Assembly (NCBI GenBank): GCA_023132915.1
Contig: JAGLXM010000188.1
Location: forward strand, 1 to 38,591
DNA: 38,591 bases
DNA from: Candidatus Bipolaricaulota bacterium
GTDB taxonomy: Bacteria; Bipolaricaulota; Bipolaricaulia; UBA7950; UBA9294
Reading direction: 5' to 3'
The notes beneath the pieces are model-generated. The model saw only the letters and a program-made list of their open reading frames with translations. It was not told where the DNA came from and did not search any database. Below, piece after piece: positions 13,482-31,747 of this stretch; positions within the stretch are counted from its first letter, which is position 1; the number at the start of each line of letters is the position of its first letter. The translations under genes and the position numbers were made by a program.

Positions 13482-13541
13482 TTGACAGTAGCTACTTGTG
13501 GATATATTATATTGCAGAGTTGCACGATAATCATTGTCGTT
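13482..13541 (+). promoter_or_regulatory. Pc-like promoter and attI-like site at the left end of the cassette array
   Basis: TTGACA-N17-TATTAT (13482-13510) overlapping TATTATATTGCAGAGTTGCACGATAATCATTGTCGTT, homologous by eye to the other attI-like cores. Confidence 0.6.
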
Positions 13542-13564
13542 CGGCTGAATTAGGATGGCTTTAT

Positions 13565-14200
13565 ATGCCCGCAAAGCACAGAGATAAACAAGATGATATA
13601 CCTTGCATTCTTCGACATCTGATCAAATGGAGGCCGCTATACGAATTAGCTGTAGTTGTAAGTGCAGTCGTTGCTATAGTTTTTGGTGGTATATCCATCA
13701 GTCAAACTCAGAAAGCACTTGATGTCGTAATAAGCTCTCTTTCCCTTTCAAACAAATCGGTAGAGATGCAAGAAAAGGAATTTTCGCTACGCAACCGCCC
13801 TCTAATAGTAATAGGAAGCCATCAGCTTGATGGTCCAGCTGGAGATTCGACTGGCAATAAATTCCCTCGATCTGTTAAGGTTCACTTGGTGAACATTTCA
13901 GATATACCTGCAACTCAAGTACAAGGCACTTTTGAGGTCAAGCTGAACGGGAATACTATTGGGATATCGAGCCTTTCACCTACTGCAGTTACCAAAAATA
14001 CTACGAGGACACTTGCCTTGGGTTTGACCGATGATCTTTACAGAGAGGCCCTAAACCCAGCTAACAATTTCGAAACAACTGTTGAGCTTACATATTCTGG
14101 AATGCTTGGTGAAAAATCTGATCATTACATGACAAGAGTTATTGTTTATTGGTCATCTCAGGATAACCATTTCATAAGCAGGGAAACTTTATACAAATGA
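13565..14200 (+). CDS. Cassette-encoded membrane-anchored protein of unknown function
   Basis: ORF in register with the cassette junction; TM segment LAVVVSAVVAIVFGGISI. Confidence 0.6.
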   Translation: MPAKHRDKQDDIPCILRHLIKWRPLYELAVVVSAVVAIVFGGISISQTQKALDVVISSLSLSNKSVEMQEKEFSLRNRPLIVIGSHQLDGPAGDSTGNKFPRSVKVHLVNISDIPATQVQGTFEVKLNGNTIGISSLSPTAVTKNTTRTLALGLTDDLYREALNPANNFETTVELTYSGMLGEKSDHYMTRVIVYWSSQDNHFISRETLYK

Positions 14201-14228
14201 ATCATTTGAATCATGAATAGCTGGCTTC

Positions 14229-14386
14229 ACCGAACAAATAAATACAGCGGACGCAAAAAGACGCGCCGCGGATTTCAATCCGCTTGCTGTCCGGTGCGAA
14301 GCGCCTCCCAACAACGGATCCAGCGGACGGAGTCCGTTGCGAGCAAGCTCGCGCTCCGTCCACCGCTGATCCGCGGCTCGTTGGCA
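14229..14386 (+). repeat. Composite attC region; inner complete attC at 14306-14386
   Basis: TCCCAAC AACGGATCCAGCGG...CCGCTGATCC...GTTGGCA with central hairpin; outer ACCGAAC at 14229. Confidence 0.65.
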
Positions 14387-14397
14387 GGAAGGGAAAA

Positions 14398-15141
14398 ATG
14401 GACGTTGAATCCTATTTTCGGTCTTTAACCACCGAGCTTGAGTCACTTAAGGATAGAGTTAGAAATTTTATTCATGGGGCGCATTGGTTGACCGATGGCG
14501 AGTGGAAAGAAAGCGTGCTTCGATCAATTCTCGCACGAAAACTTCCTGACACAGTAAAGATCGGTAGAGGGTTTGTACTTACTCAGGATGGCGCATCTAG
14601 CCAGTGCGATATCCTCCTCTACAAGGCGAGTGCACCCATTTTGTTTAAGGAAAGTGACCTTGTGTTTCTCACACCAGATGCAGTTCTCGGCATAATCGAA
14701 GTGAAATCCCGAACAGATAGAAGGACTCTTGAGGCTGCCCTCGACAAGTTTTCACAAATAGGCCGTAAGCTGAGGCGACACAAAGAGCATTGTTTTTTCG
14801 GTCTATTCTCTTATGAATCCGCAATAAATCAAGACCGCGTGGTTCTCGAAACACTATGCAATAAATGTGATCATGAAACCAAAATAGTAGATTTAATCAA
14901 TTTGGGTTGCTCCACATTTGTAAGATGGTGGAAATTTAGCCCCGGTGATGGCATTGCACATTATGAAAGGTGGCATTCCTATAGTCTTGAGAATATGTCT
15001 GCAGGTTACTTTATTGCCAATGTAATAGATTTTGTGAGCCCAGATTCTGTAAGAAGCAACAGCTGGCTGTGGTTTCCGGAGGCAGGCAAAGAATCAAAAA
15101 AGACTGGAGATATAGCCTTTGGACATGCTCTTAACCATTAG
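14398..15141 (+). CDS. DUF6602-like putative nuclease-fold protein
   Basis: SILARKLPDTVKIGRGFVLTQDGASSQCDILLYKASAPILF...DAVLGIIEVKSRTD. Confidence 0.6.
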   Translation: MDVESYFRSLTTELESLKDRVRNFIHGAHWLTDGEWKESVLRSILARKLPDTVKIGRGFVLTQDGASSQCDILLYKASAPILFKESDLVFLTPDAVLGIIEVKSRTDRRTLEAALDKFSQIGRKLRRHKEHCFFGLFSYESAINQDRVVLETLCNKCDHETKIVDLINLGCSTFVRWWKFSPGDGIAHYERWHSYSLENMSAGYFIANVIDFVSPDSVRSNSWLWFPEAGKESKKTGDIAFGHALNH

Positions 15142-15143
15142 CC

Positions 15144-15280
15144 TGCCAACAACCGCATTCACAAGGATGTACGTTCCGCTGCCGCTCCATCGAGCCGCGG
15201 ATTTCAATCCGCTTGCTGTCCGGCGCGAAGCGCCGTCCATCAACGGAGTCCGTCCATCGCTGATCCGCGGCTCGTTAGGC
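15144..15280 (+). repeat. attC-like site between cassettes 2 and 3
   Basis: TGCCAAC ... GTTAGGC; CCTGCCAAC is the reverse complement of the cassette 2 start GTTGGCAGG. Confidence 0.65.
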
Positions 15281-15302
15281 AGCATACCAAAAGGGGGCAA
15301 AT

Positions 15303-16514
15303 ATGTATGTTCTTGACCTCCTCAAGAGTTTGAAATCAAACCAGCCCAAGGCAACGGATGTTGTTGCATTCGAATACAGACTCCTCTGCAGTGGGGCATT
15401 ATATAACGCACGGGTCATAACAACCGATTGGCGCAAGAGTGACGCAACTAGGCTCCTGTTCGGAAAACCCTTTGCGCTGAGTGTGTGTAGTCATCCTTTT
15501 GACGACTACCCCCAAGAGTTGTCCCTCAGATTCCAGGCCGCCCTCGTAACAGAGACCCGCGGTAATATGGAGGCTATATTCTATCCCGATGAAGAGATTG
15601 CCCGTGACATTGCTGCGATTCTTAGTCTTCTGCTGAGGCGTCTCATCACAGTAGCGGCTAAGGTCCGCGAGATCCATCCAAGACAATACGAGCAAGAGCC
15701 AGACTTCCTGCTTGATAGCGCAATAGATTTTGTAAACAGACTTACACGTATCTATTGGGAGCGTAAGCCAGCTACAGTCATCTACGGTAGGGAGGGTATT
15801 AGTGAAATTATCGACCACAACCCACCTCCCCAGGGTGTGGTCCCCGACGATCTGAGCAACCTACTAACTGGACTAGCCTCGTCTCAATTATCGGAGTCCT
15901 TGATCCTGAGCGCCCGTCTGTACTCCCAAGCCCTACGCCAAATTGAACACGAGGCAGAACTTGCCTATCAATCACTTATCTCGTGTGTTGAGACATTGGC
16001 GAACGAAGCGCTCTGCGACTACAATCCTGGAAAAGCTGATATGGTCGAGAGCAAGAAATCAGTATTCGAAATGGCAACACAACTAGGGCTGGAACGAGAC
16101 AAAGCCGAAGAGCTTGCCATAAAAGCTTGCTCGGACAATCCATGGTCTTCTAGGAAGTTCACAAAGTTTTTGATGGACAACGCCGGAGAAGACATATGGA
16201 AGAAGGATGACCTATTTCGTCTCGACGAGTTGTTCTGGCCCAAACGGGAAGAATTTGAAAGCACTATTAAATCTATCTACGGAGTTCGGTCAGGAGCGAC
16301 TCACCGAGGCCGCCCCTACCCTAGTAGCATTGCTTTTGGGATCGGTCCAACTGTGCCTTACGATGTCTTTCGCGACCTGAATCTTGGATTGCCTAACACT
16401 CCGATCACTCCAATTCCACCTGTTGTCTGGTTTGAACGGCTGGTGAACTCCGCAGTCAACAACTTCATCAGAGGCATCGCGGCAAACGAAACCATAGAGG
16501 AAGAAAGAGGTTAA
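15303..16514 (+). CDS. HEPN-domain-like protein (ApeA-like C-terminus)
   Basis: C-terminal IYGVRSGATHRGRPYP with an RX4H motif typical of HEPN RNases. Confidence 0.5.
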   Translation: MYVLDLLKSLKSNQPKATDVVAFEYRLLCSGALYNARVITTDWRKSDATRLLFGKPFALSVCSHPFDDYPQELSLRFQAALVTETRGNMEAIFYPDEEIARDIAAILSLLLRRLITVAAKVREIHPRQYEQEPDFLLDSAIDFVNRLTRIYWERKPATVIYGREGISEIIDHNPPPQGVVPDDLSNLLTGLASSQLSESLILSARLYSQALRQIEHEAELAYQSLISCVETLANEALCDYNPGKADMVESKKSVFEMATQLGLERDKAEELAIKACSDNPWSSRKFTKFLMDNAGEDIWKKDDLFRLDELFWPKREEFESTIKSIYGVRSGATHRGRPYPSSIAFGIGPTVPYDVFRDLNLGLPNTPITPIPPVVWFERLVNSAVNNFIRGIAANETIEEERG

Positions 16515-16553
16515 CCACTGACAACGGACATAATATGAAAAGACGTATCACTT

Positions 16554-16668
16554 GCCTAACAATTCAATACACCAGACCGCAAACAGCGCCTTGCGGGGCA
16601 TTTGGTTGTGCACCGATTCACGGGCTGGGGTATTCGAGGGGTGGTGGGTCACGAGGGGTGGTGGGTCA
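16554..16668 (+). repeat. attC 5' half (GCCTAACAATTCAATACACCAGACCGC...) followed by a 17-bp tandem duplication, interrupted by repeat unit U1
   Basis: GCCTAAC complementary to cassette start GTTAGGC at 15274; CGAGGGGTGGTGGGTCA twice at 16635-16651 and 16652-16668. Confidence 0.55.
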
Positions 16669-17081
16669 GACCTTTATTTTTGGTGTTTTGTGATGGGCTG
16701 AGGAACCGGGGTCCAAGACCGTTTTCAGCATCTTTCTCTTTCAAAGGTTTCTTTCGACACCAAGCTGTACGCACGTGAGGCATGAATCCACATTAGCGGC
16801 AAGTATCTCGTTAATGTGAGTCCAGCGTCCAGCCTTGTCGTGATGGAAGCGGAGGAACCGCTCGATCCAGCGGGTACTAGCCTCCTCTGTTCAGGGCGAC
16901 TACTGCGTCGCTCGGCAGGCCGATGGACTTGGTCGAACAACTTTATGGGTGTATGGTGGCGTGCACGAATAGCAATGTCAATATGAGGAGATGGAAAGCA
17001 GGTTAGAATGGTCGGGAACGGAAGTAGCGGCGAACGGTGCTCGTCGGCGCTATGGTGCAGATTTGCACACTAATCATTGTT
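16663..17081. repeat. Repeat unit U1: delta-intI 5' end (minus) plus attI-like site (17051-17081)
   Basis: Near-identical by eye to 18066-18485; minus-strand residues TRWIERFLRFHHDKAGRWTHINEILAANVDSCLTC. Confidence 0.75.
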
Positions 17082-17096
17082 CGAAAGGAGGAGAAG

Positions 17097-17390
17097 ATGG
17101 CAAGACGACGCGGAAGTAACCAAGATGGACGGAAGTTTGACGATGAGCGTGTCCAGGAGGTCTGGGACCGCGGAGCCACGATCCGCGGGAAGGACGCGGA
17201 CCTCTACCGCAAAGACGCAGCCGGTAACGAGATCTACCGACACTCGTACGGGAAGCAGTCCGACATGGGATGGGAAGTTGACCACAAGAAACCGGTCGAC
17301 GCGGGCGGAACAGACAACCTCCGCAACCTGCAGCCGCTCCAGACAGAAGAGAACAGGGAGAAGGGCAAGCAGTACCCCTGGAAACCGTAG
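17097..17390 (+). CDS. Small HNH endonuclease-like protein
   Basis: GWEVDHKKPVDAGGTDNLRNLQPLQTEENREKG; AGGAGG upstream of ATG. Confidence 0.75.
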   Translation: MARRRGSNQDGRKFDDERVQEVWDRGATIRGKDADLYRKDAAGNEIYRHSYGKQSDMGWEVDHKKPVDAGGTDNLRNLQPLQTEENREKGKQYPWKP

Positions 17391-17395
17391 TGGTT

Positions 17396-17473
17396 TTCGA
17401 ACAACCGGATCGAACGCGACTCCGGTAAGGCCGCGGCCGGCCTCACCGGAGCGGTTCATCCGGGACGTTGGAC
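17396..17473 (+). repeat. Complete attC site (78 bp)
   Basis: TTCGAACAACCGGATCGAAC...GGTTCATCCGG GACGTTGGAC with central hairpin CTCCGG..CCGGAG. Confidence 0.75.
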
Positions 17474-17498
17474 GGCGGGGAGAGCCATCTAGAACTGG

Positions 17499-17987
17499 TT
17501 GGTCTGGGGGTACTACATGCAGGCACAGTCCGGTTTCGAGCCGTGGTGGGCAGCGCTCACCATATGGGGAGTGGTGAATGCCGTAAATCTGCTGCAGGCG
17601 GTGGGCTTCCTCTCGCGGGTGCCCACCGGAAGCATGACGGTCAATCACCTTCTCGGTCGCGTGATGATTGCCCTCGCGATCCCATCGACAGGCGCCCTCG
17701 TCGCCTTCGTTCGTGCGCGCGCCAGTTGGCTGCACTGGGTCGGCCCAGTCGTCTACCTGGCGTTCGTGGCGTTCATGGTCGGCGTGGAGTACGTGTGGCG
17801 GGTCGAGTTCCGCTCGCCCATGCGCTACGAGATCCTCGTGCCGTATCTCGTCCTCTTCTTTGGCTCGATCGTACTGATGGGGCTACCCATGTTCCGCCTG
17901 AACCGGCAGCTTTGGCTCGTCACCGTGGCGACCGCGGTTCTGTTGTTGGGGGCGATGGGTGTTGCGATGCGCAAGGGTGTAGGGTGA
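17499..17987 (+). CDS. Cassette-encoded multi-TM membrane protein
   Basis: Several hydrophobic helices; lies inside a cassette with 14-nt complementary ends. Confidence 0.6.
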   Translation: MVWGYYMQAQSGFEPWWAALTIWGVVNAVNLLQAVGFLSRVPTGSMTVNHLLGRVMIALAIPSTGALVAFVRARASWLHWVGPVVYLAFVAFMVGVEYVWRVEFRSPMRYEILVPYLVLFFGSIVLMGLPMFRLNRQLWLVTVATAVLLLGAMGVAMRKGVG

Positions 17988-18065
17988 GGGATTGGACCAC
18001 GGTTGCGGCAACGGAACCCTTGGACTGCTTGTGCCACGGATCCCCGCCGTCCAACCAGTAGTGGT

Positions 18066-18485
18066 AGGGGTCAGACCTTGATTTTTGGTGTTTTGTGATG
18101 AGCTGAGGAACCGGGGTCCAAGACCGTTTCCAGCATCTTTCTCTTTCAAAGGTTTCTTTCGACACCAAGCTGTACGCACGTGAGGCATGAATCCACATTA
18201 GCGGCATCCATTTCCTCAGGGTGAGTCCAGCGTCCAGCCTTGTCGTGATGGAATCGGAGGAACCGCTCGATCCAGCGGGTACTAGCCTCCTCTGTTCAGG
18301 GCGACTACTGCGTCGCTCGGCAGGCCGATGGACTTGGTCGAACAACTTTATGGGTGTATGGTGGCGTGCACGAATAGCAATATCAATATGAGGAGAGGAA
18401 GGCAGGTTAGAATGGTCGGGAACGGAAGTAGCGGCGAACGGCGTCCGTCGACGCTATGGTGCAGATTCGCACACTAATCATTGTT
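18066..18485. repeat. Repeat unit U2: delta-intI 5' end (minus) plus attI-like site (18455-18485)
   Basis: Near-identical by eye to U1; directly precedes the TauE cassette. Confidence 0.75.
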
Positions 18486-18504
18486 AGCTTAAAAGGAGTA
18501 TAAA

Positions 18505-18873
18505 ATGACATTATTGATTCTGATTGGAGCAATAGCTGGTCTAGTTATGGGAGCCGTGGGTGTTGGAGGTGGAGCAATCATAATTTTTTGTCTATCAGCT
18601 TTTGCTAAGTTTCCTCAAAAAATTGCACAGGGGACAACCTTGTTTATAGTTGCTGCACCGATTAGCCTCTTGGCGGCAATGCGTTACTATAAACAAGATT
18701 ACGTTGACGTTAAGGCTGGTTTTATAGTTATGGCCAGTTTTCTCCTTTTTAGTTTCATTGGCGCTCATATCGCTATTCATCTACCAAGCAGCATGTTAAA
18801 GATTCTCTTGGGGATAATGCTTTTGTTGATGGGAACAAAACTTATATTTTCTGGCTGGGCAGCAATAAGCTAA
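18505..18873 (+). CDS. TauE/SafE-family (TSUP) permease, half-size
   Basis: GLVMGAVGVGGGAIIIF and IGAHIAIHLPSSMLKILLGIMLLLMG; AAAGGAG upstream of ATG. Confidence 0.75.
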   Translation: MTLLILIGAIAGLVMGAVGVGGGAIIIFCLSAFAKFPQKIAQGTTLFIVAAPISLLAAMRYYKQDYVDVKAGFIVMASFLLFSFIGAHIAIHLPSSMLKILLGIMLLLMGTKLIFSGWAAIS

Positions 18874-18937
18874 CAAGGCGCTCCACCTGACCGCTATACC
18901 GCTGCGCTCCAGTGCCGCCGGTGAGCTTTGAACCAAA

Positions 18938-19235
18938 GGGGTCAGACCTTTATTCTTGGTGTTTTGTGATGGGCTGAGGAACCGGGGTCCAAGACCGTTT
19001 CCAGCATCTTTCTCTTTCAAAGGTTTCTTTCGACACCAAGCTGTACGCACGTGAGGCATGAATCCACATCAGCGGCAAGTATCTCGTTAATGTGAGTCCA
19101 GCGTCCAGCCTTGTCGCGATGGAAGCGCAGGAACCGCTCGATCCAGCACGCGTAGGCTTGCTCCGCTCGTGGGGAGTAGTGCTTCGCTCGGCAGTAGAGC
19201 TTCCCGCAATTCTGACGGAGAACATACTCGTCCAA
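18938..19235 (-). pseudogene. intI-like: Repeat unit U3: truncated integron-type tyrosine recombinase, N-terminal domain only
   Basis: MDEYVLRQNCGKLYCRAKHYSPRAEQAYACWIERFLRFHRDKAGRWTHINEILAADVDSCLTC then stop; resembles the IntI N-terminal HYSxRTEQAYxxWIRRFIxFH region. Confidence 0.65.
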
Positions 19236-19254
19236 CCAAGGGGCGGTTCTCGGG

Positions 19255-19587
19255 GAGATTCAATTGAGCAAGTCTACTTTAGGGGCAGGCGCAAGGAGGC
19301 CACCATAGGCAAGGCGGCGGGCGCAGGCAGCGCTGGCACAGTGTCTGCTCTCTGGGGCATCGGTTGTCCTACTGGACGAGCCGACGAATCACCTGGATTT
19401 GACGAGTACGCAGGTGATGGAAAGGGCTCTGGTGCACTTCCCCGGCGCGGTCGTCGTGGTCAGCCACGACCGCTTCTTCATAGACAAGGTCGCCACGAGG
19501 TTGCTGGCCTTCGAGGATGGAGGAAGCGTGCGCCAGGTCGCCGGGAACTGGACGATGTGGCAGGCTAGTGCGCCGTTCACTCAGTAG
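19255..19587 (+). pseudogene. C-terminal remnant of an ABC-F type ATPase
   Basis: QCLLSGASVVLLDEPTNHLDLTSTQVMERALVHFPGAVVVVSHDRFFIDKVATRLLAFEDG. Confidence 0.7.
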
Positions 19588-19804
19588 ATTAGGATTGCCC
19601 TCAGATGGTGATCCAGTCACGAGGCGTGAAGGACCTCCAGCTTCGCCACTGATTGGGGGAGTGTTCTCCTGGTCTGGCGGGCTTGCCGGAAGAGCCCCAT
19701 GGTTGTAGCATGATTTCCGTGAATAGCAAGGGCACATGGAGGCAATAGAAGATATGGAGAGACCGATAACAAGAGCCGAGTTGGCGGGAGGGATGAGTCA
19801 ACGC

Positions 19805-19839
19805 TACGCTGCAATCCCGCACAGTAGTCGTTGTTACTC
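19805..19839 (+). repeat. Diverged attI-like site D
   Basis: TACGCTGCAATCCCGCACAGTAGTCGTTGTTACTC aligns with the attI-like core; upstream GAATAGCAAGGGCACATGGAGG matches flanks of other units. Confidence 0.5.
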
Positions 19840-19855
19840 TACGGAGGATGGATAG

Positions 19856-20905
19856 TTGACGGCTCCAGATGTGCGTTGGGCATGCTCAGCCCAGGTGGAC
19901 CTCCTGGGATTCTCAGACCACCTGATGGTTGCGAATTGGGACATCAGGAACCGAATCGGTAGGCAGGCAATTGAGCGGCTGTCATCGCTAGAGGATGCGC
20001 TGCAGCTCTTTCAGAAGGAAAGGGAGAACCACCCCCAGCTATATCCGAGAGCACTGCAATACAGGCGTTTCAATGATACGCTATTCCTTGGGGTAGATGC
20101 CGAGCATCTCGAGCCGCCAACCGGCCAGACTACCTTGACCGGCGGTTATTCACTAAACGAATTGAAGAAACTACATCCTCAGAGCGGGCAAACGGTGCCC
20201 AAGGGTACCAGAGCGGAGTCTGGCGGTGATGTCGCGAAGTTCCTTGGGCTGGTGGCAAGAGTACACGAATACGTAAACCGACGCGAAACAGAAAACGACT
20301 TCCCAGGGTGTCGCACCGTGGTAGCTTCGGGATTACGTAGGCGCTTTAGTGACCGGAATGACGAAGACGATTTCTTTTCTGCCAATTTCGCAGTCTCAGC
20401 AGCGTTTGAAGCCGATAAGAGTGGCAGTTCCGGGGGGCTGAAAGGCGACAACCTATATGTTGAGCAGGACGTTGGGATGGCTATTTCATACTGCGAGCCC
20501 TGTCATGCTGTCTTGGGGTTTGCGAAGTTCGTGAGGACAGATTCGTCCCTCATCGACCCATACGAATACATCAAGACGCCGGAGAACATGGTCATGGGCT
20601 TCCTTCCAGGTGGTTTCTGGACCATTCCCGAACCCGTCACGCTAGAGATAATGAAGAAGAACCTTACATTCAGGCGCCTCAATCCAGCGGTGTTGACGAA
20701 TCTTCAGCTCCTTAGTGACTATCAACGACTGGCAACAGAGAGCGGAGAGTTTAACAAGTTGATAAGTAATTGCTTTTCGACTTCGACCCCGTCGGTGGAG
20801 GAGGTGAACGAATCGAGTCTCCCATTCGGGAAACACGAGTATCCGTTTCTATCGTTGGAGTTCAGTCTAGATGCACAGTACAGTGGCTATTTCGGTGAGG
20901 AGTAG
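19856..20905 (+). CDS. Unknown protein, first gene of a three-gene set
   Basis: 349-aa ORF, TTG start, after attI-like site D; VDLLGFSDHL and RFNDTLFLGVD are loosely reminiscent of class III cyclase-like folds. Confidence 0.55.
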   Translation: MTAPDVRWACSAQVDLLGFSDHLMVANWDIRNRIGRQAIERLSSLEDALQLFQKERENHPQLYPRALQYRRFNDTLFLGVDAEHLEPPTGQTTLTGGYSLNELKKLHPQSGQTVPKGTRAESGGDVAKFLGLVARVHEYVNRRETENDFPGCRTVVASGLRRRFSDRNDEDDFFSANFAVSAAFEADKSGSSGGLKGDNLYVEQDVGMAISYCEPCHAVLGFAKFVRTDSSLIDPYEYIKTPENMVMGFLPGGFWTIPEPVTLEIMKKNLTFRRLNPAVLTNLQLLSDYQRLATESGEFNKLISNCFSTSTPSVEEVNESSLPFGKHEYPFLSLEFSLDAQYSGYFGEE

Positions 20906-20917
20906 CTTAAGGACGTC

Positions 20918-21160
20918 ATGGCGTCAGATCCTATTCCGCGAGGCAAGAAACAAGCTTTGACCCTACTTCCGCATGGCCCCGAGCATGTGGCGTTGATTCC
21001 GAACCTACCGCCGCTTCATGCTGTGGCATTTGGCCCTTGGGGGCGCTCTCAACAGCCCGTTGTCTTTGCGGTTCCGTTTGATCCTGGGAAGTTCGAGATG
21101 CCTGAGGGGTCTTCCGTCATAGAGGGCGCTGGCAAGTCTTTGACGATAGAGGTGCGCTGA
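20918..21160 (+). CDS. Small unknown protein
   Basis: 80-aa ORF closely spaced between the two neighbours, same strand. Confidence 0.4.
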   Translation: MASDPIPRGKKQALTLLPHGPEHVALIPNLPPLHAVAFGPWGRSQQPVVFAVPFDPGKFEMPEGSSVIEGAGKSLTIEVR

Positions 21161-21188
21161 ATCGAGCCAAGGAGGATAGAGGGCAACG

Positions 21189-22856: not shown

Positions 22857-22892
22857 ATGGGCTGGGAAGTCGGGGGCCTTAGGGGGGCCTTA

Positions 22893-23204
22893 GGGTCAGA
22901 CCTTCATTCTTAGGATCTCCTCATCTCAAGGAGCTGAGGCCCGATCTTTGACTCCGAATCATAACCAAAGTAACCAAAGGGGTCAAACCTTCATTCTTCG
23001 CATCTCCTCCGTTCAGGGCGAGTAGTGCTTTGCTCAGCAGGCCAGATGGACTTGCTCGAACAGCTTCATGGCTGTATGATGTCATGCACGAATAGCAATG
23101 TCAATATGAGGAGATGGAAAGCAGGTTAGAATGGTCGGGAACGGAAGTAGCGGCGAACGGCGCTCGTCGGCGCTATGGTGCAGATTTGCACACTAATCAT
23201 TATT
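22893..23204. repeat. Repeat unit U4: two GGGGTCARACCTT copies, shorter delta-intI 5' end, attI-like site (23174-23204)
   Basis: Sequence from about 23008 matches U1 by eye; GGGTCAGACCTT at 22893 and GGGGTCAAACCTT at 22979. Confidence 0.65.
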
Positions 23205-23251
23205 AGGCCGCATTTGAATATAATTAACTTGTTTTCGTCGAGGAAAAGTCA

Positions 23252-23812
23252 ATGGAGCTGTTTCCAAACTTAGAAATCGGATTGTTCAACGGATGGGTAC
23301 TGATTGTCCTCTTCTTTGGGGCTTATGGGATCATGTTGATATTCTTCCCCAAAAATGCGATTGCGAGGCTATATGACCGATCGGGTCAGAGAGAGCATCA
23401 GCTACTCCGCCGCTTATTTGGAGTGATCTTAGTATTGATGTGGTTCATTTTTGTGAGTTTGACCCCCCTGAAAATTGGTGATGTAGTGTTTATGATAGGA
23501 ATTTCAATATATTCCCTTGGGTTGATTGGATTTGTAATTGCCCTTGACAATTTCAAAAACACTCCGGTTGATCAGCCAGTTACAAGTGGGCTCTATAGGA
23601 TCTCACGGCACCCTCAGCAATTGGCCGTCTCCGTATCCTTCCTGGGGATAGGCATTGCCATAGGATCATGGCCAGCATTGGCATTCATGATCCTTGGTGT
23701 GATTGGAGCTCATTTTATAATCCTCGCGGAAGAGGAAGCTTGCCTGGAACAGTATGGTGAGTCGTATAAGAACTATATGGAACGTATTCCTCGGTATTTT
23801 TTGTTCTTCTGA
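23252..23812 (+). CDS. Isoprenylcysteine methyltransferase-family-like membrane protein
   Basis: ISRHPQQLAVSVSFLGIGIAIGS...EEEACLEQYGESYKNYMERIPRYFLF. Confidence 0.75.
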   Translation: MELFPNLEIGLFNGWVLIVLFFGAYGIMLIFFPKNAIARLYDRSGQREHQLLRRLFGVILVLMWFIFVSLTPLKIGDVVFMIGISIYSLGLIGFVIALDNFKNTPVDQPVTSGLYRISRHPQQLAVSVSFLGIGIAIGSWPALAFMILGVIGAHFIILAEEEACLEQYGESYKNYMERIPRYFLFF

Positions 23813-23897
23813 GATGGTTTCAAAATGATTATGGAGTGAATATGATTCACAGATTTGGTGTTGAATTTGCTTCCGAATTCACCGAATCGTAAATGCG

Positions 23898-24021
23898 GCC
23901 TAACGTCTCGCTGGAGGCGACCGGGGATGCGGCGCGATTTGCAGACAAAGTTGTATAATGGCGGTGCTGCAAGAGCAGGTAGTGGGGCGAGCCCTGGCGC
24001 CTCAGCTCGAGGCTGTTAGGC
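23898..24021 (+). repeat. Complete attC site (124 bp)
   Basis: GCCTAAC...GTTAGGC; AAATGCGGCCTAAC is the reverse complement of the cassette start TTAGGCCGCATTT. Confidence 0.8.
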
Positions 24022-24129
24022 GCACGCGACCGCAGTAAGGTGGCCACATAAGCAATGTTACATTGAGGTTGTCAATCAAGTGCATAGTTACAGACCAGGA
24101 GCTTGGGAGAATACAGAAGGGGAAGGGTG

Positions 24130-25371
24130 ATGGCGAAGGCATTCTTTCTCAATATCCCCGCGCACGGGCATATGAACCCGACCCTGCCGCTGGTGAGGGA
24201 GCTGGTCAATCGCGGTGAGACGATCATCTACTACACTGGCGAGGAATTCCGGGAAAAGGTTGAGACAGCGGGGGCCGAGTTTCGGACTTACGAGAGCTTG
24301 GGCGAGGCGGTGCGATTTCAGTTTGTGGGTTATGACGAGCGGTCGCCCAATATGGTTTTGATGGCGCGCATCATGATCCAATTTGCAGAAGACGTGCTCC
24401 CGCCGCTGCTCGATGTGCTCAGACGAGAGCAGCCGGACTACATTCTGCACGACTTTACCTGCATCTGGGGATTGCTGGCTGCTGAGATACTGGCTATTCC
24501 CGCCGTCGCCATCATCCCGCAGTTCCCCATCAACTATCAGACCCGCCCCGATCCCTATCCGGGGATGTGGCGCGATTTTCTCTGGAATTTCGTAGCCGGA
24601 ATCCCACACCTGGGACCTTTTAAGCGGGTTGCCAGACGCATCAGCGCAGCGTATGAGACACGGCCAATCACGCTGATGAACTTTATGTCCAATCACGAGG
24701 ACTTGAACATCGTCTTCACGTCACGCTACTTCCAGCCGAATGCAGAGGATTTTGACGAGAGCTTCGTGTTTGTGGGACCATCGATTGCACCGCGCGACGA
24801 GACGATTGACTTCCCGCTGGATTTCCCGGCCCATTGTACTGGCCCACTGGTCTATATCTCGCTGGGCACTACTATCTTCACCGCCAATGTGGCGTTCTAC
24901 CGGGCGTGCTTCCAGGCGTTCGGTGATACAGATAAGCGCGTGATTCTCTCGGCAGGTCAGTGGACCGACCCGGAGTCGCTGGCGGATGCGCCACCGAATT
25001 TCATCATCCGGCCATATGTGCCGCAGCTCGAAATCCTGAAGCTGGCAGATGTGTTCATCACGCATGGTGGGATGGGCAGCGTCAGCGAGGGGCTGCTCCA
25101 TAGCGTCCCGCTGATTGTCATTCCCCAGGCAGCGGATCAGCCATTTGTGGCCCAAAGGGTGAGGCGGCTTGGGGCAGGATACGTGCTATACAGGCAGCTG
25201 GCCCGTCCGGCGGAGCTGGATCGGCTGGTGGATGCCATCGTCGCTGATGAAAGCGTGCGCGCCGAGTGCAACCGGATCGCCGAGTCTTTCAAAGAGGCAG
25301 GTGGGTTCGTCAGGGCGGCGGATGTGATATTGGATTGCCTCTCAGCGCAGGCGAGGACGGCGCAAACGTAA
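24130..25371 (+). CDS. MGT-family (macrolide-type) UDP-glycosyltransferase
   Basis: NIPAHGHMNPTLPLVRELVNRG, FITHGGMGSVSEGLLHSVPLIVIPQAADQPFVAQRV. Confidence 0.88.
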   Translation: MAKAFFLNIPAHGHMNPTLPLVRELVNRGETIIYYTGEEFREKVETAGAEFRTYESLGEAVRFQFVGYDERSPNMVLMARIMIQFAEDVLPPLLDVLRREQPDYILHDFTCIWGLLAAEILAIPAVAIIPQFPINYQTRPDPYPGMWRDFLWNFVAGIPHLGPFKRVARRISAAYETRPITLMNFMSNHEDLNIVFTSRYFQPNAEDFDESFVFVGPSIAPRDETIDFPLDFPAHCTGPLVYISLGTTIFTANVAFYRACFQAFGDTDKRVILSAGQWTDPESLADAPPNFIIRPYVPQLEILKLADVFITHGGMGSVSEGLLHSVPLIVIPQAADQPFVAQRVRRLGAGYVLYRQLARPAELDRLVDAIVADESVRAECNRIAESFKEAGGFVRAADVILDCLSAQARTAQT

Positions 25372-25623
25372 ATGGCACCTTGAATTTCGCCCTTCGCCTA
25401 ACCCCGCGTGCAGCCGACCTGCTAATCGAGTGTCCTCTTGTTGCCAGGTTTCGTTTTTGCAGCGTTTTGGGTTCACGGGTGGTGTTACGAAATTCGAGGG
25501 ACATCTCTGAAAGCGCCCTGTTTGTCAAGTCATTCGTTCTCGATTTACCTCCGTAGTTGTCTTTCTGTCGTCCTTCCTTCGAGCCCGCTCTGCCGGAGGA
25601 AAAATCCCCCGCAAAGGTTGCGG

Positions 25624-25664
25624 TTGACAGTGACGACAATTTGTCTACAATTGAGGACGAAATG
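25624..25664 (+). promoter_or_regulatory. Promoter with operator-like palindromes before the MNT gene
   Basis: TTGACA-N16-TACAAT; GACAATTTGTC and GGACGAAATGTCC inverted repeats; ATG 10 nt after the -10. Confidence 0.6.
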
Positions 25665-26240
25665 TCCGCAAAGGGAATTGCCGAGACGCTCTTTCCTAAG
25701 ACGCGTCTTGCTGTGCTGAAGGAGCTGACAAACGCTGTTGATGAAGGCCTTCACCTGCGCGAGCTCGAACGTCGGACCGGCCTCGACAGCCGAGGGCTTC
25801 TCCGCGAGCTTCACGCGATGAGAGACGCCGGAATCCTGGCCGCAAAGCGTGTCGGCCGCCAGGTGATCTACCGACTGAATGGTTCCTGTCCGATTCATGA
25901 CGAACTACGCTCGATCGTGTTGAAGACGGTCGGCCTCGGGGACGTGCTGCGAGAGGCCCTTTCCCCATTTGCGGAGCGAATCGATTTGGCGTACGTCTAT
26001 GGCAGCCTGGCATCGGGTGAGGCTTCTGCTGAAAGCGACGTGGATGTCATGGTTGTCGGGACAGTCACGTTGCGCGAGTTGAGCGCATCGCTCCGAAAGG
26101 CGGGCTCGCTTCTGCGCCGTGAGATCAATCCAACGCTGTACCAGTCGGATGAGTATCAAGAGGCACTGAACACGCAGAATTCTTTTATCTCTCGTGTTCA
26201 CCAGGGACCGCGGATCGACCTGATCGGAGCGGCCACATGA
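25662..26240 (+). CDS. Winged-HTH + MNT-type minimal nucleotidyltransferase (antitoxin-like)
   Basis: N-terminal wHTH (LHLRELERRTGLDSRGLLRELHAMRDAGIL) and VYGSLASGEASAESDVDVMVVG. Confidence 0.8.
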   Translation: MSAKGIAETLFPKTRLAVLKELTNAVDEGLHLRELERRTGLDSRGLLRELHAMRDAGILAAKRVGRQVIYRLNGSCPIHDELRSIVLKTVGLGDVLREALSPFAERIDLAYVYGSLASGEASAESDVDVMVVGTVTLRELSASLRKAGSLLRREINPTLYQSDEYQEALNTQNSFISRVHQGPRIDLIGAAT

Positions 26241-26683
26241 GTCTTGACGACATGGTCCGTCGCGGTGAGCTTGAGCAATTACCGTCAACAGTGGGAGAGA
26301 TTCCTGCACTGCTGCAGACTATCAACCGTCGGATCGAGGATGCAACCAATCCGTCCAACCATCCCGAGACACGGCTGGAACAAGCCTACACAGCGATCCT
26401 GAATTGCGCCTTGGCCGCACTTCGTGCAGAAGGCACAAGACCAATCCGTGGGGCTGGGCAACACGTCCATACTCTCGAAAGCCTTCGTTTCACATTGGGC
26501 GTCGAGGAAGAACGTCTGGACTACTACCACACGTTGCGTTCACTCCGTCATCGCGGGCTCTACGAAGGCTTCACCGCTGTGTCCAAGAGCCGGGCCGAGG
26601 AAGCCGTAGATGAAGCTCGGTGGCTTCAAAGTCAGTTAGCGACGTGGCTGACTGGCCATAACCCTGAGCAGACAGAAGTGTAA
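26237..26683 (+). CDS. HEPN-like partner of the MNT protein
   Basis: Overlaps the MNT stop; helical protein ending RSLRHRGLYEGF...RAEEAVDEARWLQSQL. Confidence 0.6.
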   Translation: MSLDDMVRRGELEQLPSTVGEIPALLQTINRRIEDATNPSNHPETRLEQAYTAILNCALAALRAEGTRPIRGAGQHVHTLESLRFTLGVEEERLDYYHTLRSLRHRGLYEGFTAVSKSRAEEAVDEARWLQSQLATWLTGHNPEQTEV

Positions 26684-26818
26684 TTGCAGGCTGTGGAATT
26701 CCGGGGACATCTCTGAAAAGGCATGCCGTATCAAGTCTTCATACCTCGATTCACCTCCGAAGTAGCCTTGTCGCCATCCTTTCTTCAGCCTCAGTCTGTC
26801 GGAAGCATCTCTTCGCAG

Positions 26819-26878
26819 TTGGCATGATATAGAGCTCCTGGTATTATGTTGCGAGCTTGCAGAATAATTGCTGTATGG
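26819..26878 (+). promoter_or_regulatory. Promoter/attI-like element (copy B2) upstream of the ANT(6)-like cassette
   Basis: TTGGCA-N17-TATTAT, then ATGTTGCGAGCTTGCAGAATAATTGCTGTATGGG; same sequence recurs at 31551. Confidence 0.6.
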
Positions 26879-26893
26879 GCGGCACTGCGCGCC

Positions 26894-26974
26894 TCTCAAC
26901 AACGGATCCAGCGGACGGACTCCGTTGCGAGCAAGCTCGCGCTTCGTCCATCGCTGATCCGCGGCTCGTTAGCG
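26894..26974 (+). repeat. attC site nearly identical to that at 14306-14386
   Basis: CTCAACAACGGATCCAGCGGACGGACTCCGTTGCGAGCAAGCTCGCGC...GATCCGCGGCTCGTTAGCG. Confidence 0.7.
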
Positions 26975-26991
26975 TCACAAGAGGAAAACCC

Positions 26992-27840
26992 TTGAGAACG
27001 GAAGAAGATGTCCTATCACAGTTTTCTGAATGGGCACGGAGAAACGATGTGATTCGAGCGGCTGTGCTGACGAGTTCTCGCGTCAACCCGAACCCATGCA
27101 TCGATTTCCTGTCGGATTATGATATTGAGCTGTATGTATCGGATCTTCGCCCATTTCAACAAGACGATAGTTGGCTGAGAGTCTTCGGGCCCATCATGGT
27201 TCGCTGGCCACTAAAGCCACGGTCAACAGACGGTGAGAATTGGATCACGCGACTCGTTCAATTCAAAGATGGCGTGCGAATCGATTTTCAGATTACGGAC
27301 CAGACTAGTATTGAACCAGACGCCTACGATAACGGCTACAGAGTACTCATCGACAAGGATAATCTAACAACAGGCTTACAAGAACCGACATTCTCGGAAT
27401 ACATCATCAAGAAACCTTCCAGGCAGGAGTATGAAACGCTGGTCCATGAGTTCTGGTGGGATGCAATCTATGTACCTAAATACCTTTGGCGGGACGAATT
27501 GCCTTTCGCAAAATACATGTTCGATAACGTCCTTCGTTACTCTTTCCTGCAAAAGGTTGTCGAATGGTACATTGGTTTACAGAATGACTGGTCAGTGAGC
27601 ACTGGAACCTGCGGCAAAAAGTTCAAGCGCTATCTTGATGCCGAAACCTGGTTGGAATTCGAATCTACATACGCCGGGGCGGATGTCGAAGAGAACTGGC
27701 GGGCCTTCTTCAAGACCGTTGAGTTCTTTAGAAAGCTGGCAAGAACAGTCGGGACCAGTCTCGGTTATGACTATCCTACGGAGTTAGATGAAGAAGTGAC
27801 GCAATACTGCCTAAGTATTCGAAAAACGAATATGGAATGA
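26992..27840 (+). CDS. Aminoglycoside 6-adenylyltransferase-like protein (ANT(6)/AadK family)
   Basis: MRTEEDVLSQFSEWARRNDVIRAAVLTSSRVNPNPCIDFLSDYDIELYVSDL...DGVRIDFQI; TTG start. Confidence 0.85.
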   Translation: MRTEEDVLSQFSEWARRNDVIRAAVLTSSRVNPNPCIDFLSDYDIELYVSDLRPFQQDDSWLRVFGPIMVRWPLKPRSTDGENWITRLVQFKDGVRIDFQITDQTSIEPDAYDNGYRVLIDKDNLTTGLQEPTFSEYIIKKPSRQEYETLVHEFWWDAIYVPKYLWRDELPFAKYMFDNVLRYSFLQKVVEWYIGLQNDWSVSTGTCGKKFKRYLDAETWLEFESTYAGADVEENWRAFFKTVEFFRKLARTVGTSLGYDYPTELDEEVTQYCLSIRKTNME

Positions 27841-27888
27841 CGCTAACAAAACGGTTGCAGCTTACCATCCGCTGCTCGTCAGAAGGGC

Positions 27889-27917
27889 TTGAAATAGCAT
27901 GCTAGCCGTTCTATTAT
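27889..27917 (+). promoter_or_regulatory. Leaderless-type promoter for higBA with palindrome TAGCATGCTA in the spacer
   Basis: TTGAAA-N17-TATTAT; ATG at 27924 lies 7 nt after the -10. Confidence 0.65.
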
Positions 27918-27923
27918 GTGTTT

Positions 27924-28217
27924 ATGATTCGGTCCTTCGCAACCCAGGCAACCGAGGACATCTTCAACGGGCGCAGCACCAAGGCTGCGCGAAGAACGTG
28001 TCCGCAGAATCTTTGGAGTATCGCGGGACGCAAGCTAGATCAGCTGGACTCGGTGGAGTCGCTCGGTGGACTCCGAATCCCGCCGGGGAACTGCTTGGAA
28101 CAGCTGTTCGGAAGTCGGCGGGGCCAATTCAGCATTCGGATTAATGACCGCTACGGTTTGTGCTTTCACTGGACGGAGATGGGGCCTGCGGACGTAGAGA
28201 TTGTGGACTACCATTAG
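27924..28217 (+). CDS. higB: HigB-type toxin (RelE superfamily)
   Basis: MIRSFATQATEDIFNGRSTKAARR...RIPPGNCLEQLFGSRRGQFSIRINDRYGLCFHW. Confidence 0.9.
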   Translation: MIRSFATQATEDIFNGRSTKAARRTCPQNLWSIAGRKLDQLDSVESLGGLRIPPGNCLEQLFGSRRGQFSIRINDRYGLCFHWTEMGPADVEIVDYH

Positions 28218-28227
28218 GAGGTGGAAA

Positions 28228-28536
28228 GTGGTACTTGTACCGACCCATCGAGAGCCGACGCACCCGGGCGAGATGCTTCTGGAGGAGTTTCTCAAGCCGA
28301 TGAAGATTTCGCAGCGGGAACTGGCAGATCGTATCCACGTTCCCTATCAGCGTGTGAACGAGCTGATCAACAAGCGGCGCGGCATGAGCCCCAGCACGGC
28401 GCTGCGCTTGGCCCGAGTCTTTGGAAACTCGCCCTCGTTCTGGATGAATCTCCAGCTTCGGTGGGACCTTTTTCGGGCTCAGCAGACCGAGGCAGCCGAG
28501 CTCCGGCGCATTCGGCCTATGCGTGCCACCGGCTAG
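28228..28536 (+). CDS. higA: HigA-type antitoxin (XRE HTH)
   Basis: PTHPGEMLLEEFLKPMKISQRELADRIHVPYQRVNELINKRRGMSPSTALRLARVFGNSPSFWMNLQ; AGGAGG and GTG start. Confidence 0.9.
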   Translation: MVLVPTHREPTHPGEMLLEEFLKPMKISQRELADRIHVPYQRVNELINKRRGMSPSTALRLARVFGNSPSFWMNLQLRWDLFRAQQTEAAELRRIRPMRATG

Positions 28537-28550
28537 TGTTTGAAACGGCC

Positions 28551-28620
28551 TCCTAACATGACGCTCAACCCGACGGTCGCCTCCGGCGCCCGCTCGCAGC
28601 TTATTCGCAGCCTGCTGGGT
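28551..28620 (+). repeat. attC-like site after higBA
   Basis: TCCTAAC ... CAACCCGAC ... GCTGGGT; R' core deviates (GCT). Confidence 0.45.
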
Positions 28621-28644
28621 GGGCAAAACTGAAGGAGCAGAATT

Positions 28645-29409
28645 GTGCTTGCGGCCATCACGCGTGAAGTCAGTCCAAGCATTGCGAAGTGTGAACTCAC
28701 GCATCTGGTGCGTGAGGCGATTGATGTTCGTAATGCCAGGTTGCAGCATCGGCAGTACGAGCGTTGCCTGGCTGATCTTGGTTGTAGAATTCATCGCCTG
28801 CCTGTGGAGGCGAGTCTGCCTGATTCGGTATTCGTCGAGGATACGGCAGTTGTGGTCAATGAGCTGGCGGTCATAATGCGCCCCGGAGCTGAATCACGGC
28901 GAGCAGAGGCAGCATCGGTGGCGGAAGCGCTGGCAGGGTATCGGCAGCTGTACCACATTGAATCACCGGGCACCATGGATGGGGGAGATGTGCTGCGTGT
29001 GGGCAAGGTGCTGTACGTTGGGTTGTTAAGCAGGAGTAACCCGGCGGGCATCGAACAACTGCGGTCGTATGTATCAGCCTACGATTATGGAGTCGAGATG
29101 GTAGAGATGGAGGGATGCCTGCACCTGAAGTCGGCGGTGACGCAAGTTAGAAGAGGCACGTTGCTGGTGAACCGAGCCTGGGTGGATGTGAGTGCGTTTG
29201 AAGGGATGGAACTAGTGGATGTCGCACCAAGTGAGTCGATGGGGGCGAACGCGCTACTGATTGGTGAGACAGTGGTCTATCCGAAGGCGTACCCGGAAAC
29301 ACGAAGGCGGCTGGAGGAGCGTGGGATAGAGGTTGTGGTCGTTGATGTTTCGGAAATGGCAAAGGCAGAGGGTGGCGTGACGTGTTGCAGTCTGATTTTC
29401 GACGTGTAG
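28645..29409 (+). CDS. Dimethylarginine dimethylaminohydrolase-like (DDAH/arginine deiminase fold)
   Basis: DSVFVEDTAVVV, GTMDGGDVLRVG, CLHLKSAVTQV, EGGVTCCSLIF. Confidence 0.88.
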   Translation: MLAAITREVSPSIAKCELTHLVREAIDVRNARLQHRQYERCLADLGCRIHRLPVEASLPDSVFVEDTAVVVNELAVIMRPGAESRRAEAASVAEALAGYRQLYHIESPGTMDGGDVLRVGKVLYVGLLSRSNPAGIEQLRSYVSAYDYGVEMVEMEGCLHLKSAVTQVRRGTLLVNRAWVDVSAFEGMELVDVAPSESMGANALLIGETVVYPKAYPETRRRLEERGIEVVVVDVSEMAKAEGGVTCCSLIFDV

Positions 29410-29420
29410 GAGCTGTGCCT

Positions 29421-29607
29421 GTCTAACTCTCGCTGGAGCCGACCGTGCTGAGCGAGGGGCATTTGGAACTACTTGGTAGAAGTAATCAGCTTCGCGAGCG
29501 GCTGTGGCTGGTCAGTCCCGCACGGCAGCTCAGCTCAACTGATGGAGCGGTCGCTTCGCGCCCGCTCCATCGAGCCGCGGATTTCAATCCGCTTGCTGTC
29601 CGGCGCG
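29421..29607 (+). repeat. attC-like region containing a 44-nt segment identical to 15184-15227
   Basis: GTCTAACTCTCGCTGGAGCCGACC; GCTCCATCGAGCCGCGGATTTCAATCCGCTTGCTGTCCGGCGCG. Confidence 0.55.
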
Positions 29608-29651
29608 TCGGAATGGAGGCAGAATCTCTATTGACAGGTAGGGGGTGAAAG

Positions 29652-30551
29652 ATGACGGCGTTGCAGTTTGACGAAATCTATGCTCAAGTTCCTGTTGAAC
29701 AGAAGCGGCTCTTGCAGGAATTCCGCGCTAACCATCCCTACAAGGAACTGGAGGTCGGGGGTGCTCGCTGGCGCTACATTGCCTGCGGGCAGGGAGACAA
29801 AACTCTCCTTTTCCTGCCCGGTGCGTTTATGAGAGCGGATATGTGGTTCTACTCCATCACTGCCTTCGAAAAGAAGTATAGAATCATAACTCTGGACAAT
29901 TACGCATTGCAGGGAACGTTCGCCATGGACGAGGTCTGTCGCGCTCATGCGGCAATCCTTGGCGCCAAAGAGGCAGAGAAAGCAACGGTCATTGGGGTCT
30001 CCGGTGGCGCAGGAGTCGCCCAGTTTTTCCTTCAGGAATACCCGCAGAAGGTAGAGCATGTGGTATTCTCTCACTGTAGCGTTGCCGGCGCGCAAGATAC
30101 GTCAAGGCTACAGAAGCAACTGAAGTTGATCAAGATTCTCCCTTTCCCCATCTTGATGCGAATACTACGCCTAGTAAGGAGAAGTGGATGGGCATTTCCG
30201 CCTTCGAGCGAATGGTTGGCATTTCGCGGCACATACCTTCGGGAGATGAGTCTGGACATCAACAAGGAGATGTTTCTACGCTTCATGGAAGCAGGGGTAG
30301 AAGCCCATCGCAGCTTTGTGTTCAGGTCAGAAGCCCTACAGCACTGGCCTGGGGAGATATTGGTTCTGTCATCCAAGGGCGACAAGTCGTCAATCGACCA
30401 TGTGGGAGAACTGAAAGCACGGTATCCCAGGGCCAGAACGCATATCTTTGAGGAGGGCGGACATCACACGTTCATGCTGTTCCCCAAAACGTATACCGCC
30501 GTTCTAGAGGCGTTTTTGGATGAGGTATTGCAGCAACGGCTTCCCCGCTGA
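29652..30551 (+). CDS. Alpha/beta hydrolase
   Basis: LLFLPGAFMRADMWF, VIGVSGGAGVAQFFLQEYP, EGGHHTFMLFP. Confidence 0.85.
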   Translation: MTALQFDEIYAQVPVEQKRLLQEFRANHPYKELEVGGARWRYIACGQGDKTLLFLPGAFMRADMWFYSITAFEKKYRIITLDNYALQGTFAMDEVCRAHAAILGAKEAEKATVIGVSGGAGVAQFFLQEYPQKVEHVVFSHCSVAGAQDTSRLQKQLKLIKILPFPILMRILRLVRRSGWAFPPSSEWLAFRGTYLREMSLDINKEMFLRFMEAGVEAHRSFVFRSEALQHWPGEILVLSSKGDKSSIDHVGELKARYPRARTHIFEEGGHHTFMLFPKTYTAVLEAFLDEVLQQRLPR

Positions 30552-30585
30552 GTCGTTGCTACGCGGTAGTCACACTTGAAAAGCC

Positions 30586-30712
30586 GCCCAACAATGCATG
30601 CACCCGACCGGGCTATCGGTTGCGCACATCGGCGGTTCCACGCGCTTTCAGTGTGCCTTGTAGTGGAGGCTCTTTCCCGCAACCGCCCGGCGGGTGATGC
30701 TAACCGTTAGGC
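30586..30712 (+). repeat. Complete attC site (127 bp)
   Basis: GCCCAACAATGCATGCACCCGACC ... GCGGGTGATGC ... GTTAGGC. Confidence 0.8.
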
Positions 30713-30770
30713 GGAATCGCGAGTGATCGGTCACACAGGGTCTAGTCCTGCAACCCAACATTAATTCCTT

Positions 30771-30810
30771 GGTATACCTCGTTGACTTCGTATACCTTTG
30801 ATGCTATACT
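30771..30810 (+). promoter_or_regulatory. Promoter with operator repeats for the RHH/RelE module
   Basis: TTGACT-N17-TATACT; GGTATACC and CGTATACC repeats over the promoter. Confidence 0.65.
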
Positions 30811-30849
30811 CCTGCTTAGAGAACGCAAGAAAAAGGAGGCGGATGACGC

Positions 30850-31074
30850 GTGGCAAGCTCAAAGTCAGTCTCCACAAAGGTAAACCCTCAGCTAAAGAGA
30901 CACCTCGAGGAGATTGCGCGGCTGGAAAAGCGCAGCCTAAGCACGGTCGTCAAGATGGCCGTGGAATATTACGTCGATCAGTACAATACCCTGCACCCTC
31001 AGTTCCAAGCAGATATTCGCGAGGCGCTTGCGGGAATCGAACAAGGGGATGTTCTCCCTTACCCTCGCGGGTAG
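30850..31074 (+). CDS. Ribbon-helix-helix antitoxin-like protein
   Basis: STKVNPQLKRHLEEIARLEKRSLSTVVKMAVEYYVDQY; GTG start. Confidence 0.75.
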   Translation: MASSKSVSTKVNPQLKRHLEEIARLEKRSLSTVVKMAVEYYVDQYNTLHPQFQADIREALAGIEQGDVLPYPRG

Positions 31075-31083
31075 CTTTCCGCT

Positions 31084-31374
31084 ATGGTGTTAGAGCCCGT
31101 TGCCTATACCAAATTCGCCCGGATCAAGAAAAAGCTCCCCGAACTACTGCGGCGACAAATCGACGTACAGGTAGACCTGCTCTGCCGCGACCCGACCCTT
31201 GGTGAGATGAAGGCCGGAGACTTGCAGGGCGTACGCGTCCACAAGTTCTCTTGCCTCGGCCAACTCTACCTCCTTGCCTACACCGTTGATGAACCCGAAA
31301 ACAGACTCTACCTGCTCGCCATTGGAGGACACGAGAACTTCTACAGGGATTTGAAGAACTACATCAAAACCTAA
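31084..31374 (+). CDS. RelE/ParE-family toxin-like protein
   Basis: YTKFARIKKKLPELLRRQIDVQVDLLCRDPTLGEMKAGDLQGVRVHKFSCLGQLYLLAYTVDEPENRLYLLAIGGHENFYRDLK. Confidence 0.8.
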   Translation: MVLEPVAYTKFARIKKKLPELLRRQIDVQVDLLCRDPTLGEMKAGDLQGVRVHKFSCLGQLYLLAYTVDEPENRLYLLAIGGHENFYRDLKNYIKT

Positions 31375-31550
31375 ACGCTCGCTATCCAGAGAATCCAAGG
31401 GACGCGAACCATATTTCCGAGGCTTGCAACTCCGAAAACATCTTAAGAAAGCATGCGCCCAAATTAAGTCTTCACACCTCGATTCACCTCTGAGGTCGCC
31501 TTGTCATGATTTTCCTTCGGGCCCAGTCTGTCGGAAGTATCTCTTCGCAG

Positions 31551-31610
31551 TTGGCATGATATAGAGCTCCTGGTATTATGTTGCAGGCTTGCAGAATAAT
31601 TACTGTATGG
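31551..31610 (+). promoter_or_regulatory. Promoter/attI-like element (copy B3) upstream of the cupin cassette
   Basis: TTGGCA-N17-TATTAT then ATGTTGCAGGCTTGCAGAATAATTACTGTATGGG; duplicate of 26819-26878. Confidence 0.6.
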
Positions 31611-31714: not shown

Positions 31715-31747
31715 GCACTGCTTATCAAACAACAGGAGGGTGGAGAT

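Follow-up and report, generated by a model that had tools for sequence, protein, structure and literature searches.

A textbook integron carries one attI site in cis to intI, so only the first few cassettes of its array are expressed and cassettes have a single entry point. Several related kinds of element are described in the literature, namely delta-attI cassettes, attG sites, pseudo-integrons and CALINs (PMC12901181, PMC12444791, PMC2426708). Delta-attI cassettes mostly keep 14-18 nt of attI, and 110 were reported among 1,742 class 1 and 2 integrons (PMC12901181). IntegronFinder, a tool used to annotate such elements, offers no attI detection outside class 1 (PMC9024848). In the open-licence literature that we searched, which does not settle priority, we found neither a genome with dispersed attI modules nor a paper linking Bipolaricaulota with integrons.

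The window analyzed here, the whole 38,591-nt stretch of DNA, is a contig of a 2.49-Mb MAG of Candidatus Bipolaricaulota (G000; 91% complete, 354 contigs, 7% contamination). Two same-genus sister species, G001 and G002 (records CSMAG_2704 and CSMAG_2234; Candidatus Bipolaricaulota), served for comparison. As a cassette array from Bipolaricaulota, the window adds this phylum to the known hosts of such arrays. Relaxed criteria with a fold control identified four attC sites in the window and none in reversed controls, and the strict consensus (RYYYAAC/GTTRRRY, 6/7 pairs) left just two convincing ones. The features are listed in Table 1.

Between 13.5 and 32 kb, the order begins with attI-C, cassettes 1-3, head A1, cassettes 4-5, head A2, cassette 6, the interrupted head A3 and a run of ORFs. 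Head A4, cassettes 8-9, module D1 with its immediate attC and the adenylyltransferase gene follow, and the series ends with HigB-like toxin, DDAH-like, hydrolase and ParE-like toxin genes, module D2 with an attC, and a cupin cassette. The heads, four of one kind (A), two of a second (D) and one of a third (C), all lack intI, are joined head to tail and in some cases sit at REP-type transposon ends. The earlier note had described this region as one cassette array and suggested a multi-entry integron; several integron fragments joined head to tail fit better than one integron. In G002, the contig with the C-type module stops 108 bp upstream of it, which leaves too little sequence for comparison with an orthologous empty site.

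Table 1. Integron-related features of the window (positions in nt, forward strand of the contig)
Feature	Position	Strand	Description
attI module, type C	13482..13530	+	Promoter TTGACA(13482)-17-TATTAT(13505) and attI-like core; same module in G002:C23
attC site	14306..14386	+	Fold z -5.8; 0 such sites in reversed controls
Probable attC, cassette 2	15143..15282	+	R'' CCTGCCAAC pairs with cassette 5' end GTTGGCAGG; boundaries by eye
attC of cassette 3	16556..16662	+	R'' TGCCTAAC; 3' half absent, head A1 in its place
Head A1	16663..17079	+	REP-type end GGGTCAGACCTT; decayed intI 5' end on minus strand, ~16774-16950; attI 17051-17083
Cassette 4	17079..17473	+	HNH-type ORF 17097-17390; attC 17396-17473
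Cassette 5	17468..18060	+	R'' CCGCCGTCCAAC matches own 5' end over 12 nt; remaining attC absent, then head A2
Head A2	18067..18483	+	REP-type end; decayed intI 5' end on minus strand, ~18179-18350; attI 18455-18487
Cassette 6	18483..18930	+	TauE/SafE-like ORF 18505-18873; attC R'' TAAGCTAAC at ~18865, 3' part absent
Head A3, interrupted	18938..19194	+	REP-type end; intI 5' remnant on minus strand, 19050-19190
Doubtful seventh attI-like segment	19805..19837	+	Not significant alone
Head A4	22979..23202	+	REP-type end GGGGTCAAACCTT; intI 5' remnant; attI 23174-23206
Cassette 8	23202..24021	+	PEMT-type methyltransferase ORF 23252-23812; attC 23898-24021; 5' end and R'' complementary over 11-12 nt
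attI module, type D1	26814..26875	+	Promoter TTGGCA(26819)-17-TATTAT(26842); core with GTATGG at crossover
Probable attC directly behind D1	26896..26977	+	94% like attC 14306-14386; by eye
Cassette 10	26973..27846	+	Streptomycin adenylyltransferase-like ORF 26992-27840; homologous cassette behind attI in G002:C49
attC, alpha/beta hydrolase cassette	30586..30712	+	attC search with fold control
attI module, type D2	31545..31609	+	Core with GTATGG at crossover
Probable attC directly behind D2; cupin cassette starts	31640..31716	+	Repeat family D3; by eye

All seven attI-like segments that the earlier note had aligned were found at their positions. As a non-circular test, a weight matrix was built from 20 sites of other genomes only, the window being excluded. 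This matrix scored 51.7 bits at 23174, 51.4 at 18455, 51.1 at 17051, 41.8 at 13505, 26.5 at 31575, 19.8 at 26843 and 7.6 at 19805; these are exactly the seven top places on the + strand of the window, and the next best reached -5.8. In 40 random windows scanned on both strands, the best score had a mean of 2.6 (sd 3.8) and a maximum of 16.4. Six segments (13505, 17051, 18455, 23174, 26843 and 31575) are thus above all random controls, and 19805 is not; alone, it is not significant with the matrix or with the 76-nt sequence model R1 (3.1 bits, E 4.9).

Two further claims about these segments were borne out in part. The first five had been placed at the exact start of a cassette, which applies to 17051, 18455 and 23174, where the cassette starts with the reverse complement of R'' from its own attC downstream; 13505 is off by 2-3 nt (TGTCGTTCGG), and no matching attC was found for 19805. 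Each site had also been credited with its own promoter. A TTGACA-17-TAYTAT promoter is indeed present at 13505, 26843, 31575 and most sites elsewhere, and it reads into the cassette in types C and D and in most of type B. At the A-type sites (17051, 18455 and 23174), no recognisable sigma-70 promoter occupies the position used by the other types.

The attI label, offered earlier as an inference, is well supported, and we regard the segments as real attI sites on the grounds of the crossover boundary, the remnants of the intI 5' end, the attC-bearing cassettes behind the sites and a cassette that follows attI in one genome and attC in another. Across 34 copies, sequence identity stays high as far as the final T of TAATCATTGTT and drops to chance level immediately behind GTTRGG; since this boundary of homology lies at G/TTRRRY, the sites are read as integron attI and the border as the crossover. 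The GTTRRRY crossover is found at the cassette border except at 26843 and 31575, which have GTATGG instead of GTTRGG, an attC within ~35 nt and no ORF directly behind. Complementarity of at least 9 nt between the 5' end of a cassette and its own R'' was seen at 9 of 24 sites; 0.91 sites would be expected, and 300 swaps gave 4 at most. The cassette with two settings encodes an aadA-like adenylyltransferase, is 77% identical in the two genomes, and lies behind attI in G002:C49 and behind attC in the window; the homology of the two copies starts at the same GTT (GTTAGCGTCACAAG). The gene (window 26992-27840; G002:C49, L090, ~7.8-8.7 kb) is streptomycin adenylyltransferase-like (Adenyl_transf, E 6e-84) and is carried by uncultured members of a phylum far from clinical integrons.

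Next to A-type sites in G000, G010, G016, G019 and G030, the minus strand carries an intI 5' start (KLFEQVHLACRAKHYSPRTEEAYARWIERFLRF-like). This decayed end of intI adjoins sites 17051, 18455 and 23174 as well as related sites of other genera, the integron-integrase family model itself matches head A3, and in G012 a related site has a long intI pseudogene ~135 bp away. Placement of attI next to the start of a divergently oriented intI is shown for the A type and, by eye, for one D-type relative, but not for B or C. These intI remnants contain stops and frameshifts, and the attI core and promoter are conserved across genera in which intI has decayed. The common ancestry of the segments, which the earlier note had proposed, is supported by homology over 76 nt or more and by shared left junctions and architecture.

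The sites extend well beyond the window. At a cut-off of E ≤ 0.01, model R1 detects 22 sites in G000, so the earlier count of about seven, which matches the top-ranked places in the window, is too low for the genome; G002 has 14, G001 has 7, and other genera of the family have fewer, with none in 67 Bipolaricaulota genomes outside the family. The R1 training set included some sites from the window and its relatives, and the independent checks are therefore the matrix from other genomes, a pattern search with a reversed control and a genome-wide pattern scan. The reversed control was empty, and the scan of 84,980 genomes placed 6 of 10 matching stretches in two Bipolaricaulota. The four matches outside the phylum, two without R1 support and two weak, core-only matches of 14-17 bits, were taken as chance, with ~4 expected by our own estimate.

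Almost all copies in G000 have no integrase gene beside them. As the earlier note had proposed, the host genome was searched for a full-length intI; in the G000 assembly only remnants were found and nothing passed the curated cut-off, an absence that is weak evidence because the MAG is 91% complete and in 354 contigs. The assembly accordingly holds no intact intI next to an attI. IntI-like matches on contigs C206, C326, C237 and C339 of G000 are short or low-scoring parts, none over the cut-off, and we read them as other tyrosine recombinases. Full IntI genes over the cut-off were found in 2 of 100 Bipolaricaulota genomes (G001:C39 2999-4087, locus L081; G003:C137, locus L082). The two proteins are ~50% identical to each other, and neither gene has an attI-family site beside it; for this reason, the G001 enzyme is not claimed as the cognate integrase.

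Heads A1, A2 and A3 and a copy in G010, which belongs to another genus, start at the same left junction, GGGTCAGACC, with unrelated DNA beyond. This sequence is the end of REP/Y1-transposase elements, one of which carries inverted copies at both ends in G000; no matching right REP/Y1 end was found at attI, and the repeat marks the left border of the A heads. To the left of B-type modules the layout is constant: a MITE sits at -113/-87, or the 3' end of a methylase at -159. Left borders fall within truncated attC sites and not at GTT, so IntI was not the sole agent of module placement. The copies in the window differ by 5-25% and are not identical repeats.

Several observations concern the DNA around these borders. 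The 3' end of a DNA-methylase-like gene lies at ~-159 of the B-type modules in G002:C52, G002:C61, G001:C165, G001:C75 and G000:C275, and at -130 in G016:C5. Several REP/MITE-like repeat families (GGGGTCAGACCTTYATTCTT; GGAATTCCGGGGACGCATACC) fill intergenic regions, including 22893-23018 of the window, G000:C218 (L162 985-1909), C80 and C165, and the GGGGTCAGACCTTYATTCTT repeat lies at either side of a Y1 (RAYT-type) transposase gene.

With respect to cargo, no cassette common to two attI sites was found, and the first cassette of the B-type modules differs each time. A TIR-domain protein is encoded in the first cassette of two of them (G000:C80, L038, site 14013, minus strand; G001:C165, L083, site 2137), and the others carry DUF4917, metallo-beta-lactamase-fold or unknown proteins. 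The first cassettes behind B-type modules are possibly defence genes. In the window, a nucleotidyltransferase-domain ORF overlaps a small partner ORF at 25557-26683 in an arrangement like the MNT/HEPN type, with no clear attC. The cassette genes also include a HigB-like toxin gene followed by an antitoxin-like ORF (27918-28556) and a ParE-like toxin gene preceded by a partner (30798-31374).

Together, these data suggest a gene-capture system with many entry points whose enzyme is encoded elsewhere, and we consider it probable that attI sites have here been uncoupled from intI, multiplied and served by an integrase in trans. In the proposed sequence of events, the ancestral intI-attI head would have been truncated in this Bipolaricaulota family, with intI cut to its first ~60 codons or lost, and the leftover attI module, which in most subtypes has an outward promoter, would have been copied to ~20 places inside arrays and elsewhere in the genome. 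After the loss of intI in cis, either cassettes would have entered intI-less attI sites or heads would have moved to cassettes at the crossover. Copies with one common intI truncation front different cassettes, which implies that insertion or module movement continued after intI was lost; as either route needs site-specific recombination, an integrase would have been supplied in trans. Such an enzyme, resident or incoming, may act or have acted on the modules, and G001 does have an intact IntI. How the modules spread is less certain: homologous recombination, or Y1 transposition at REP-type ends and MITE-like repeats, may have been responsible and would fit the left borders. A bolder version, in which one integrase acts in trans on ~20 dispersed attI-promoter modules per genome and the module is itself a mobile, selected element (a polycentric integron), is possible, though somewhat less likely than not.

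The main rival to an integrase acting in trans is a history of passive relics, in which ordinary integrons were inserted or duplicated over time, each lost its intI, and homologous recombination between repeats shuffled the dead heads and cassettes with no integrase involved afterwards. The stops and frameshifts in the intI remnants, the attC sites truncated before heads A1-A3, the head-bounding repeats, which could recombine, and the commonness of pseudo-integrons (PMC2426708) are all in keeping with such a history. However, copies with the same truncation carry different cassettes joined exactly at the crossover, and the attI core and promoter have been kept across genera despite the decay of intI, which makes it unlikely in our view. 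It is also conceivable, if doubtful, that the heads serve as 3' recombination sites for attI-type cassettes of an unusual build (ORF, truncated attC, attI) and move as cassette parts, as c3-A1, c5-A2 and c6-A3. Cassettes 3, 5 and 6 do have a normal GTT start, have lost the 3' half of attC and end in an attI head instead, and IntI1 excises and inserts delta-attI cassettes that retain as much as 244 nt of attI2 (PMC12901181); yet the same unit of ORF and head with GTT at both ends was not found at two places, and B-type modules have MITE or methylase left borders.

Three simpler readings have very little in their favour. Cassettes are scattered through the genome, and insertion at attG is known (mentioned in PMC12901181 and PMC12444791), but insertion at unrelated native secondary sites that are alike by chance is refuted here: the reversed pattern gave 0 matches, and the sites are paralogous modules whose homology spans at least 76 nt and as much as 420 nt, with a promoter or intI remnant upstream. 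A MITE-like promoter repeat lying before genes by chance, with no role in recombination, would account for the repeats and promoter motifs but not for the GTTRRRY right border, the complementarity with attC or the intI remnants, and is highly improbable. An assembly or binning artefact might be feared in a MAG with 7% contamination and 354 contigs, but the same site family occurs in the independently assembled G001, G002, G010, G016 and G030, and the divergence of the copies in the window also speaks against it, so this explanation is scarcely credible.

With ~20 attI modules that have no adjoining intI, the docking site is separated from the enzyme. This makes it testable whether integrases naturally serve attI in trans, how cassettes distant from any integron come by their promoters, and how many "CALINs" hold unrecognised attI sites. 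If the polycentric arrangement is true, many captured cassettes would be first in line and expressed at once.

Compared with known systems, the locus is built of integron parts and would work in an integron-like manner, and among the tested features of a complete integron it lacks one, an intact intI beside attI. It shares with sedentary chromosomal integrons (intI-attI-array) the GTTRRRY attI, cassettes with attC, an outward promoter at C, D and most B sites, and a divergent intI beside attI, here as a remnant; in contrast to them, it has many attI sites per genome, an intI that is truncated or absent at each, and heads repeated within one array. As in CALINs, there are at least two attC (the four found by folding) with intI not nearby, and cassettes could be moved in trans; CALINs, however, are by definition without an attI or integron platform, whereas short cassette runs here have an attI and often a promoter. 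The attG sites are likewise cassette entry points away from intI, but they are unrelated native sequences, and the sites described here are paralogues derived from a single attI. In class 1 and 2 integrons, delta-attI cassettes (PMC12901181) also place attI-derived sites within arrays and have the attC of some cassettes replaced by attI sequence, as is seen in cassettes 3, 5 and 6, but the modules here are 76-420 nt long, genome-wide and common to several genera, with no intact intI at hand. Finally, pseudo-integrons (PMC2426708) share the decayed intI, whereas in this family the attI module has been kept and multiplied after intI decay.
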